A stretch of DNA of 64,000 bases from Sulfurimonas sp. (lineage in GTDB: Bacteria > Campylobacterota > Campylobacteria > Campylobacterales > Sulfurimonadaceae). The stretch covers positions 1 through 64,000 of the forward strand of contig NZ_JBFHGL010000005.1 of assembly GCF_041583195.1 (NCBI RefSeq). The letters are read 5' to 3'. Position numbers and translations under genes: made by a program. Positions 54,110 to 58,830 of the stretch are shown here, piece after piece (position 1 is the stretch's first letter; every line of letters starts with the position of its first letter). The notes beneath the pieces are model-generated. The model saw only the letters and a list, made by a program, of their open reading frames with translations, had not been told where the DNA came from and searched no databases.

Positions 54110-54595
54110 ATGCTTATGGAGATGAGAGAACAAGACTTTATCGTATCTAAAACAGATACAAAAGGTAAGATAACTTATGTAAATAAAATTTTTATGGATA
54201 TGGCGGAGTATAAGGAAGATGAACTACTTGGAAAGCCCCATAGTATAGTAAGACATCCTAAAATGCCAAAAGCCGTTTTCAAACTTCTTTGGGATTACGT
54301 AAAAGAAAAAAAAGAAATTTTTGCTTTTGTTATAAATAAAACAAAAAACTCAAATGCTTATTGGGTTTATGCGAATGTTACCGCATCTTTAGATGAAAGA
54401 GGTAATATCATAGGTTATTACTCAGTTAGGAGAAAACCAAATCCTGAAGCTATAAAGATCATAGAACCGCTTTATGAAAAAATGGTTGAAGCAGAAAAAA
54501 CAGGCGGTGTAGAGGCATCTACAAAAATACTAGAAGATCTATTACATGAAAAAGGGGTATCTTATGATGAACTTATCATCTCAATTCAAGGCTAA
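54110..54595 (+). CDS. PAS-domain protein (Aer/CetB-like)
   Basis: 161 aa with one PAS domain: [25 protein letters not shown], then [25 protein letters not shown] and [28 protein letters not shown]. This is the Aer-type FAD-PAS layout, as in Campylobacter CetB, without membrane helices. It overlaps by 32 nt a chemoreceptor gene, giving a likely bipartite energy-taxis pair. AAAGGAT precedes the ATG at 54110. Confidence 0.85.
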
Positions 54596-55997
54596 TAACT
54601 TCCTTATTGTTTTTATAGCTTTAATTGCTATAGGAATATACGGAATTGTAAAAGTAGATTATATCCTGGCTTCAGTGAGCATTGTTATAGCTATTATCTC
54701 TGTCTTTATACCTCAAGCAAAACAGACTAATGAGAGTTCAAAACTTTTTCAAAATGCTAAAGTCGTATTAAAAGAGGCAGCGCAGGGAAAACTGGAAGGA
54801 CGTATCACACATATACCTGATGATGATTCGGAACTTTCTCACTTTGCTTGGGATATAAACGACTTACTTGATCAACTAGAAGCATTTATGCGTGACACTC
54901 AAACAACAATTAAAAATGCCTCTGTAGGTAAAACATTTAGAAAAAATTATACATCAGGTCTGCATGGTCTATTTCAAGTTACTGCAAGAGAATTAAGCGG
55001 AGCTATACACTCTATTGCGGCAGGTTATGAGACAAAACTAAAAGGTGAACTATCAGCTGAATTAAGTTCCCTTGGCGGTGGTATAGGTGATGGACTTAGT
55101 ACCATACAAAACGATCTTATAAAATCTGAAGAGGAAGCTACACAAATTGTATCATTATCAGATAATACAGCTAAACAATCTAAAGAGAGTTTAAGCAGTG
55201 TTATAGATATTACTAAAAGATTAAATAATCTCGTAGAGCTTATATCTTCTTCACACGAAGCTATTATCTCTCTAGAAGGTAGAAGTAAGGAGATCTCCGA
55301 AGTAGTTGGGTTAATCAAAGAGATTGCCGATCAGACAAATCTTCTTGCACTTAATGCTGCTATTGAAGCGGCACGTGCAGGTGAACACGGTCGCGGATTT
55401 GCGGTAGTTGCCGATGAGGTTCGTAAACTGGCTGAGCGTACACAAAAAGCAACTACAGAGATAGAAATAACCATCTCTAGCTTGCAGCAAGAAGCAAATG
55501 ATATGAGGTCAAATTCCGACAATATATCAGATATAGCGAACAACACAACAGAAGTTATAGGAAATTTTGAGAACACATTTGAAGAGATGAATAAGTTTGC
55601 ACAAGAATCATCTGGTGTTGCTTTAGGAGTACAGAATAGACTTTATACAACACTTGTAAAAGTTGATCATATCCTATTTAAGTCAAATGCTTATTCGGCT
55701 ACTCTTGAACAAAACAAATCATATACTGTTGTAGATCATCACAACTGTAGAATGGGTAAATGGTACATAGGTAACGGTAAAGAAAGATTTGGTCATCTAA
55801 AGTCATTTGAAGCTTTAGATATACCTCATAGTGAAGTTCACAATAATGTAAAACTCGTAGGTAATTTTATTCAAGATGGTACTGTGTTAAAATATGACAA
55901 TCCTAAAAAAATAGTAAAATATTTTGCCGATATGGAAGAAAGTTCTAAAAAATTATTTGTTATACTTGATGAAATGTTAGCTGAGTATAATAAGTAA
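54564..55997 (+). CDS. Methyl-accepting chemotaxis protein with CZB domain
   Basis: 477 aa from ATG 54564 (AAAAAGGGG 6 nt upstream; an ATG in frame follows at once). Two close N-terminal membrane helices with no periplasmic domain, a HAMP-like region (about 60-130), the signalling domain with [20 protein letters not shown] from residue 256, and a C-terminal CZB domain with zinc ligands H in KVDHILFK, C in [11 protein letters not shown] and two H in IPHSEVHNN. The partner PAS protein is encoded in the overlapping upstream gene. Confidence 0.9.
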
Positions 55998-56060
55998 TCA
56001 CATTTTTGTGATATTTATTTATGTTAAGTAGTTCTTAAGAAATTGTTTACCTTTATTTAG

Positions 56061-56066
56061 TACAAT
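56061..56066 (+). promoter_or_regulatory. Possible -10 box of the tandem-hairpin RNA
   Basis: TACAAT with a predicted start near 56072, just before the first hairpin stem. One mismatch from TATAAT; no clear extended -10. Confidence 0.3.
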
Positions 56067-56073
56067 TACAGTA

Positions 56074-56178
56074 TCTCAATTATGTTTCCCCCTTTTTACA
56101 TAAGCGAGACAAGATAATCTTAATAATTATTTTGACTTCAGCTAAGTTTTTCCCCTTTTTTATACACTTAGCTGAAGT
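56074..56178 (+). ncRNA. Candidate small RNA: two tandem C/U-loop hairpins
   Basis: Hairpin 1: stem TCTC...GAGA plus TTATGT...ACATAA (56074-56109) with loop TTCCCCCTTTTT. Hairpin 2: perfect 13-bp stem (ACTTCAGCTAAGT / ACTTAGCTGAAGT, 56135-56178) with an 18-nt loop holding TTTTCCCCTTTTTT. Both loops have the form U-C4/5-U and lie in the gap between the CZB chemoreceptor and the GGDEF-EAL gene. It resembles H. pylori RepG, whose C/U-rich loop binds an mRNA of a chemoreceptor. Orientation and expression are inferred; no clear terminator U-tract follows hairpin 2. Confidence 0.45.
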
Positions 56179-56286
56179 ACTATTTCTATCACATTTTACA
56201 TATAATAAAAAATAATATCACTTTAAAGCACTATTACAGCTAACTATGATAAAATCTTATAATTAAATCTAATAGGTAGCTTAAAT

Positions 56287-58830
56287 ATGAAAATTAACTC
56301 ATTAAAAAACTCGTTTAGAATCTCCCTAACTGCCATAACTATAAGTTTATTTATAGTCTTTTATTTCTTCTCTTCTTACATACATACAAACTTAACTATT
56401 GAAGAGAATCAAAAGATATCTGAATCTTTATCTAAACAAGTATTTAATTCAATGTATCAAGTTATGAGAAAGGGTTGGAGCCGAAAAGATTTAAAAAAAT
56501 TTTTAGATGAAACAAAAAGCTCATTTGACGGTTCAAACTATGATGTAGAGATTTTCCGTGGGGAGAAAGTTGAGAAAATTTTCGGAGAAATAGAACAAAA
56601 CAAAATTACAAAAGATGTACAAAAAGTATTTGATACAAAAACAAAACTATCAAGTTCTACAAATGAATCAACTAAAATAATTACGCCTATCATAGCCAAA
56701 AACGAATGTGTAAAATGCCATGTAAATGTTACAGAAGGAGATATATTAGGTGTAGTTAGAGTTGAGTATAACTTTAAAGACATTATAGAAAATACAAAAC
56801 ATAAATACTTTATATTCTCTTTGATCATTCTTCCTCTAATGATTGTCATAGTGTACTTTTTAGCCAAAAACCTTCTTAATAAAATAAATCTATCTCTTAA
56901 TTCGTTTGAAGATAAAGTTAACAGTATCAACAGTGTAAAAGACTTTAAAAAAATAGAGGTGTGTAAAGACAAGAAAACTTATGTAGAGTTTGATAAAGTA
57001 ATACAAGGGTTAAATACCCTAAGCCAAAAACTAAAAGATATCGCCGTAGATAAAGATATTTTAGAGTTTGAAGTTAAGCTGCTTGATAAGATGATCATTA
57101 CGTCAGATATTATTAAAGACTGGAAAGAGTATATAAAAGATCTCTTACATGAGATCAATATAGTCCTTCCTGTTTATTGTTTAATAACTATTTTTAAAAC
57201 TGAAAATGAGCACTATGAGATAGAGATATTTTGGTATGGGAAACCTGAAGAGAACCTACTTGAACATTTAAACGAAGTTGCTAAAAAAATGATACTGGAT
57301 CATCACCATTTAGAAGATGCAGAATGTAATATAAACCATAATTTCAGCGAAGAGAATATATGTTTAACAAAATTGGCCATTGATGATATTGAGCATGAAG
57401 CAAAATCTATACTTTTAGACGCACCAAAAATCGGTGGTATAGTTGGGCTTGGCGTACAGTCAAAACTTGAAAAAGATTCGGTTCACTCTATAGTGATCGA
57501 TTCAATTTTAACAACTCTTCTTAATCTTGTAGGTTCAATAAAAGCTATAAACAAATATACCGAAAACCTCGAGTTTTATGCTACAAGAGATCCTCTAACT
57601 GGACTTTTTTCACAAAGAGTTTTTAGAGATCTACTTGAATATGAAGTAAAAAGAGCCAATAGCCACAAATACGAATTTGGTGTAATCGTAATTGATTGTG
57701 ATAACTTTAAACCAATAAATGACACATACGGTCATAGCTTTGGAGATGAATTCTTAAAAGCTTTTGCAAATTTACTTGAAAATTCAAAAAGACCAGAAGA
57801 TATTCTTTCAAGATACGGTGGAGATGAATTTACTCTTGTAATTCCTGAGAGCACTATAAACGAAACATATACGGTTGCAAAAAGAATACTTGAAAATGTT
57901 GAAAAATTTGAGCTTACTGCACCTGATGGTACGATCACAAGTATGACAGTATCTATAGGGATTGCCCAATACCCTGAACACTCACAAAATGAGAAAGAGC
58001 TTTTTGATATAGCCGACTCTATGATGTATAAAGCTAAGTACGAGGGTAAAAACTCTGTTAGATATCCAAATGAAACAGATATAGAAGAGATACACCAAAA
58101 GATGGAGGACCAGTCTATTATAGTTTTAGATGCTATAAAACATGAAAAAATAGTCCCTCACTTTCAACCTATAATGAACGCCTCTACTGATAAAATAGAG
58201 ATAAATGAACTTCTTATGAGAATAGAGCTTGACGGGGATATTATATCAGCCGGAAAATTTATCGAAACAGCGGAGTCTCTTGGTATTGTGCACCAGATGG
58301 ACTATATGGTTATAGAAGCTGCATTTAAAAAGATCAAAGAGGAAAACTATAAAGGACTAATGTTCATTAACCTCTCTCCAAAAGCTTTAATGATAGGTGA
58401 GTTTATAAATAAAATAGTATTACTTACTACAAAGTACGGTATAAACCGTGAGCAAATCGTATTTGAAATAACAGAGAGGGAAACGGTTAAAAGCTTCTCT
58501 TTACTTGAAAAATTTGTTCAAAATTTAAAAGCTGAAGGCTTTAGTTTCGCAATTGATGATTTTGGTTCAGGTTTCTCAAGCTTTCACTATATAAAAAGAT
58601 TCCCGATCGATTATATAAAAATCGACGGTGACTTTATTGTGAATCTTCATAACGATAAAAAAGATTTAGCTTTTGTTAAATCTATAATATCTTTAGCAAA
58701 AGAGCTTAATGTAAAAACTATCGCAGAGTTTGTAGAAAACGAAGATGTACTACAGTTTTTAAAAGATATAGAGATCGACTATGTTCAAGGCTTCCATATT
58801 GGAAAACCTTCCAAAGTGTTGAAAAATTGA
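56287..58830 (+). CDS. Heme-sensor GGDEF-EAL protein
   Basis: 847 aa. TM1 about 13-33; periplasmic heme motif CVKCH (141-145) followed by VNVTEGDILGVVRVE; TM2 about 176-196; a middle region of about 240 aa without clear homology; GGDEF with RYGGDEF at 509-515; EAL domain whose motif is ELL (641-643) instead of EAL but with other catalytic marks intact (NLSPKAL, ITERETV, IDDFGSG with D757/D758, AEFVEN). Probably a bifunctional c-di-GMP enzyme. AGGTAGC precedes the ATG. Confidence 0.9.
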   Translation: MKINSLKNSFRISLTAITISLFIVFYFFSSYIHTNLTIEENQKISESLSKQVFNSMYQVMRKGWSRKDLKKFLDETKSSFDGSNYDVEIFRGEKVEKIFGEIEQNKITKDVQKVFDTKTKLSSSTNESTKIITPIIAKNECVKCHVNVTEGDILGVVRVEYNFKDIIENTKHKYFIFSLIILPLMIVIVYFLAKNLLNKINLSLNSFEDKVNSINSVKDFKKIEVCKDKKTYVEFDKVIQGLNTLSQKLKDIAVDKDILEFEVKLLDKMIITSDIIKDWKEYIKDLLHEINIVLPVYCLITIFKTENEHYEIEIFWYGKPEENLLEHLNEVAKKMILDHHHLEDAECNINHNFSEENICLTKLAIDDIEHEAKSILLDAPKIGGIVGLGVQSKLEKDSVHSIVIDSILTTLLNLVGSIKAINKYTENLEFYATRDPLTGLFSQRVFRDLLEYEVKRANSHKYEFGVIVIDCDNFKPINDTYGHSFGDEFLKAFANLLENSKRPEDILSRYGGDEFTLVIPESTINETYTVAKRILENVEKFELTAPDGTITSMTVSIGIAQYPEHSQNEKELFDIADSMMYKAKYEGKNSVRYPNETDIEEIHQKMEDQSIIVLDAIKHEKIVPHFQPIMNASTDKIEINELLMRIELDGDIISAGKFIETAESLGIVHQMDYMVIEAAFKKIKEENYKGLMFINLSPKALMIGEFINKIVLLTTKYGINREQIVFEITERETVKSFSLLEKFVQNLKAEGFSFAIDDFGSGFSSFHYIKRFPIDYIKIDGDFIVNLHNDKKDLAFVKSIISLAKELNVKTIAEFVENEDVLQFLKDIEIDYVQGFHIGKPSKVLKN

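Follow-up and report, generated by a model that had tools for sequence, protein, structure and literature searches.

RepG (HPnc5490) of Helicobacter pylori, a small RNA of the Campylobacterota encoded by a stand-alone gene, binds a G repeat via the C/U-rich loop of its terminator hairpin (PMC8295292). RepG acts through its second stem-loop only, and the target, a phase-variable homopolymeric G tract, is encoded elsewhere. H. pylori is devoid of Hfq and ProQ (PMC8322730). The 6C/B11 RNAs of the Actinobacteria (Mycobacterium, Corynebacterium) comprise about 100 nt folded into two stem-loops with a run of C residues in each loop, and one loop of B11, whichever of the two, is sufficient for repression of a reporter with six G residues in its leader (PMC10470900; PMC4046766). 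LhrC of Listeria monocytogenes (Firmicutes), which is encoded by multiple copies, has CU-rich motifs that are redundant: those of loop A and of the terminator loop each bind the target (PMC4132741), and a third is located in a single strand. In Campylobacter jejuni, CJnc190 is processed from precursors by RNase III and is encoded opposite CJnc180. The mode of action of these chemically similar loops is proven for RepG (PMC8295292), CJnc190 (PMC8687705), LhrC (PMC4132741), and B11 (PMC10470900). For Sulfurimonas, a widespread genus of sulfur- and hydrogen-oxidizing bacteria, our literature search found no paper on regulatory RNA. We report here the comparative analysis of a locus located in a stretch of 64,000 nucleotides of Sulfurimonas DNA (the window), for which a RepG-like small RNA with two C/U loops had been predicted next to a chemoreceptor gene.

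Locus and fold of the small RNA gene

The interval of the plus strand delimited in Table 1 is, on comparative grounds, a conserved small RNA gene that was previously unannotated. The two tandem hairpins of the original prediction, their C/U loops, and the perfect 13-bp stem of hairpin 2 were all recovered, the two loops being near-identical in form (U-run, C4-5, U-run). A covariance model (R1) built from 25 aligned copies matched positions 56070 to 56183 of the plus strand (E value of 1.5e-14), with one copy in the window genome. The predicted folding energy of positions 56070 to 56200 (+) was −29.7 kcal/mol versus −10.1 ± 2.4 kcal/mol for shuffled sequences (z score of −8.1), with none of 200 shuffles as good. 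Folded singly and compared with shuffles, hairpins 2 and 1 had z scores of −7.1 and −2.9, respectively. Perfect stems of at least 12 bp closing a loop of at most 20 nt occurred three times in the 64-kb window, hairpin 2 being the sole one with a C/U loop. The middle helix separating the two hairpins was folded only in the window genome and in its closest relative (L003).

Table 1. Features of the small RNA locus and of its upstream neighbor (positions in the window)
Feature	Position	Strand	Basis
Possible target site AAAAAGGGG at the chemoreceptor ribosome-binding site	54549-54557	+	Complementary to both loops
Chemoreceptor gene (MCPsignal + CZB), ATG at 54564	54564-55997	+	Pfam
Degenerate copy of the upstream direct repeat, TTAAG-N6-TTTAC; possible activator site	56035-56050	+	Aligned upstream regions
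−10 promoter element TACAAT	56061-56066	+	TATAAT or close variant in 78/78 loci
Small RNA gene, ~110 nt, predicted ends	56072-56183	+	Covariance model R1 match
Hairpin 1	Stem 56074-56077 + 56080-56085 / 56098-56103 + 56106-56109	+	Folding
C/U loop 1, TTCCCCCTTTTT / UUCCCCCUUUUU	56086-56097	+	At least 4 consecutive C in 77/78 copies, G in none
Middle helix, lineage specific, between hairpins 1 and 2	56110-56134	+	Folding
Hairpin 2	56135-56178; perfect 13-bp stem 56135-56147 / 56166-56178	+	Folding, covariation
C/U loop 2, TTTTCCCCTTTTTTATAC / UUUUCCCCUUUUUUAUAC	56148-56165	+	At least 3 consecutive C in 75/78 copies

Promoter, strand, and 3′ end

Alignment of the upstream regions of distinct loci revealed a −10 element that ends 7 to 8 nt before CTCAATTATG in 76 of 78 cases. 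The RNA was placed on the plus strand because this promoter lies just upstream and because a U-rich tail follows hairpin 2 in most relatives. Both features favor this strand over a transcript of the minus strand only, an outcome that had been considered at the outset. Hairpin 2 is terminator-like and is, as judged from sequence, the terminator hairpin in the relatives. The RepG trait of a C/U-rich loop borne by the terminator hairpin is therefore found here, with a weak tail in the window genome, which leaves the 3′ end of the RNA uncertain in that genome. An own promoter, U-rich tails, and conservation of the RNA without particular neighbors together characterize an independent gene.

Upstream of the promoter, the relatives contain a direct repeat of 11-bp period, TTTAC-N6-TTWACTTA, that is well conserved in the genus and degenerate in the window genome. 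The repeat had few other exact matches per genome, and these were mostly inside genes or before rpsT, so that assignment to a known regulon was not retained. The repeat resembles an OmpR/PhoB-type site; the HP1043 site, in which 5 bp separate two TTTAAG hexamers (PMC8345958), is also similar, which we regard as no more than a lead.

Distribution in the Sulfurimonadaceae

Searches at the DNA level detected the region in 26 of 36 genomes of the genus, including the window genome; the 24 genomes of other families searched in the same way were negative. R1 matched 112 of 135 Sulfurimonas genomes and 71 of the 79 good ones (about 90%), with two matches in one genome and a single match in each of the other matching genomes. 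A single-copy small RNA present in such a proportion of the good genomes offers a clear entry point to regulatory RNA in Sulfurimonas. Weaker but structurally convincing copies, in which both C loops are kept, were found in two genomes of a sister genus. Extension of the R1 search to 399 genomes of the order revealed nothing credible outside the family Sulfurimonadaceae: one match (G310) came from an incomplete genome, where it lies on a short contig, and is probably a contamination, and a second (G404), with an E value of 0.017, was not accepted either. Comparison of the window and ten relatives with Rfam, at gathering and relaxed thresholds, did not identify any family reaching threshold, and the two subthreshold matches were to families other than 6C RNA.

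Constant loops on changing stems

The covariance search in relatives, which the original prediction had called for, showed that the stems are kept. In the alignment of 78 copies, which was fitted to R1 and thus favors the structure, 93% of the cells were paired, in comparison to 42 to 44% if the partner was slid by one base. For hairpin 1, 92 to 98% of the cells were paired, and the 5′ arm hardly varies within the genus. For hairpin 2, all of the 12 modeled pairs (12/12) had changed on both sides with retention of pairing, a result also obtained for the 12/12 pairs with the alignment made prior to the model. Over the whole structure, 216 cells displayed changes on both sides versus 55 in shuffles.

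The loops did not follow this turnover. In loop 2, runs of at least three C residues are nearly universal (Table 1) and runs of at least four were found in 65 of 78 copies. Loop 1 appeared even more constant, the loci having been partly collected by a pattern with CCC in that loop, which makes the loop 2 count the less biased of the two. Constancy of the loops amid changing stems indicates, at the level of sequence comparison, that selection acts on the loops, and is strong comparative evidence that they serve as sites of pairing or binding.

Two copies depart from the common form. Loop 1 of one species (L024:1498-1608) contains nine C residues in a row, and the length of the tract may vary by slippage. 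At another locus (L120:1597 onward), the 5′ half of hairpin 1 continues directly into the 3′ half of hairpin 2, the arrangement expected of a deletion from one C/U loop to the other.

Relation to known small RNAs with C/U loops

The original prediction of a RepG-like RNA is retained for a small RNA with two conserved C/U loops, the last on a terminator hairpin, and not for membership in the RepG family. Unlike RepG, the Sulfurimonas RNA carries two C/U loops and is not known to target a homopolymeric tract, and the data at hand do not place it in the RepG family, RepG having been compared by description and the R1 search having been confined to the order. Tandem C/U loops had also been proposed to be new, which they are not, since the 6C/B11 and LhrC RNAs already have such loops. 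The architecture of 6C, two stem-loops with a run of C residues in each loop, is found in the Sulfurimonas RNA, which belongs to another phylum, displays no visible sequence relation, and has loops of four to five C residues flanked by U runs. In contrast to LhrC, it is present as a single copy, and, unlike CJnc190, it is a separate gene with a promoter and a terminator. Thus, the Sulfurimonas RNA constitutes a new family within an already known type of small RNA. Its existence, added to that of RepG, CJnc190, LhrC, and 6C, suggests repeated emergence in bacteria of C/U loops directed against G-rich ribosome-binding sites.

Proposed function and alternatives

We propose, with a probability of roughly 0.6, that the Sulfurimonas RNA is a trans-acting small RNA that lowers translation through pairing of its loops with G-rich Shine-Dalgarno regions. 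The RNA would be transcribed from its own promoter (−10 element at 56061), which a factor binding to the upstream direct repeat may activate, and would end at or just after hairpin 2. Base pairing of each C/U loop with an A/G-rich Shine-Dalgarno sequence of the type AAAGGGG would block the binding of ribosomes and decrease translation of the mRNA. Two loops could provide redundancy or allow the RNA to bind two sites simultaneously. We infer this pairing from the conservation of the loops and from the proven mode of the analogues, independently of any particular target.

The genes surrounding the RNA would allow another function. In relatives, the usual order, on one strand, is chemoreceptor, RNA, and B12-binding radical SAM (DUF4080) gene; the last is located downstream on the same strand at 72 of 75 loci. 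The RNA might accordingly be a cis-acting leader of the radical SAM gene, attenuator or riboswitch-like, with the terminator-like hairpin 2 as a switchable terminator. We consider this unlikely, since a radical SAM gene directly downstream is lacking at two other loci that have the RNA and in the window genome, in which positions 56183 to 56290 following the RNA lead to a GGDEF-EAL gene instead. The radical SAM gene also has an extended −10 element of its own (TGnTAAACT and variants), whose end is separated from the ATG by about 6 nt, as in leaderless transcripts. Finally, no conserved alternative helix was seen in the RNA, and its constant parts are C/U loops, unlike known ligand pockets. The radical SAM gene at L009:1663-3120 and those of other relatives appear leaderless.

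The trans-acting reading calls for G-rich sites in mRNAs. The AAAGGGG-N2-9-ATG motif exceeded its reversed control in 13 of 13 genomes (1.5- to 3.5-fold, some matches being rRNA), indicating that G-rich ribosome-binding sites that could be paired by the loops exist; in the window genome, 28 places versus 19 in the control are hardly more. These places were clustered by protein, using those of the window genome and most of those in four relatives. The most recurrent site belonged to a ComEA-like gene (three genomes), followed by those of a further chemoreceptor and of the adjacent chemoreceptor (two genomes each), and no gene with a conserved GGGG emerged from the recurrent sites of these five genomes. 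The sites of the ComEA-like gene (about 30 orthologues) and of the further chemoreceptor (3 orthologues) varied between GGGG, GGAG, and GGAA/GGAT. Three candidates were not retained: the site upstream of flgE was restricted to the window genome and its closest relative; the EAL-HDOD gene had relatives only about 35% identical that lacked the site; and GGGG was present in about 10 of the about 30 ComEA-like orthologues, including some from genomes without a detected RNA.

With no conserved mRNA target among the recurrent G-rich sites examined, the loops could instead bind a protein, of the cold-shock or KH type for example, the RNA acting as a protein-binding or sponge RNA rather than on mRNA. 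Protein titration would be compatible with the two single-stranded motifs, which are near-identical and borne by rigid stems, and with the almost invariant 5′ arm. However, loops of this type pair with G-rich mRNA in several bacterial groups, including the same order, and nothing in our analysis points to a protein, so that we regard this option as quite unlikely.

The adjoining chemoreceptor gene had been put forward as the target, by analogy with RepG. Its AAAAAGGGG site could pair with either loop (predicted energies of −13.2 and −12.4 kcal/mol for the two loops) and belongs to the AAAGGGG-N2-9-ATG places, of which the window genome has only 28. Adjacency as such is no argument, because RepG itself lies away from its own target. 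AAAAAGGGG has only four G residues, and the corresponding ribosome-binding site contains GGAG rather than GGGG at 28 of 38 loci (GGGG at 7). Moreover, a chemoreceptor gene was found upstream of the RNA at 45 of 72 loci, the RNA being kept without it at the remaining 27. A RepG-type regulator devoted mainly to this chemoreceptor is thus very unlikely. That the locus does not encode any regulatory RNA, being a mere terminator or repeat, as the terminator-like hairpin 2 might suggest, or a small coding gene, as might the ATG fixed in stem 1, is extremely unlikely in view of the conserved promoter, the single copy per genome, the covariation, and the frame following that ATG, which is not conserved (4 to over 40 codons), with loop lengths occurring in all three phases.

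For the trans-acting regulator, a broader and somewhat doubtful extension would be that of a core small RNA of the Sulfurimonadaceae that globally regulates mRNAs with G-rich ribosome-binding sites, arose independently of RepG, CJnc190, LhrC, and 6C, and has chemoreceptors among its lineage-specific targets. The ComEA-like gene encodes a short exported helix-hairpin-helix protein (L397-L426), and, in several species, its ATG is preceded by an unusual ribosome-binding site, AAAGGGGTTAAA.
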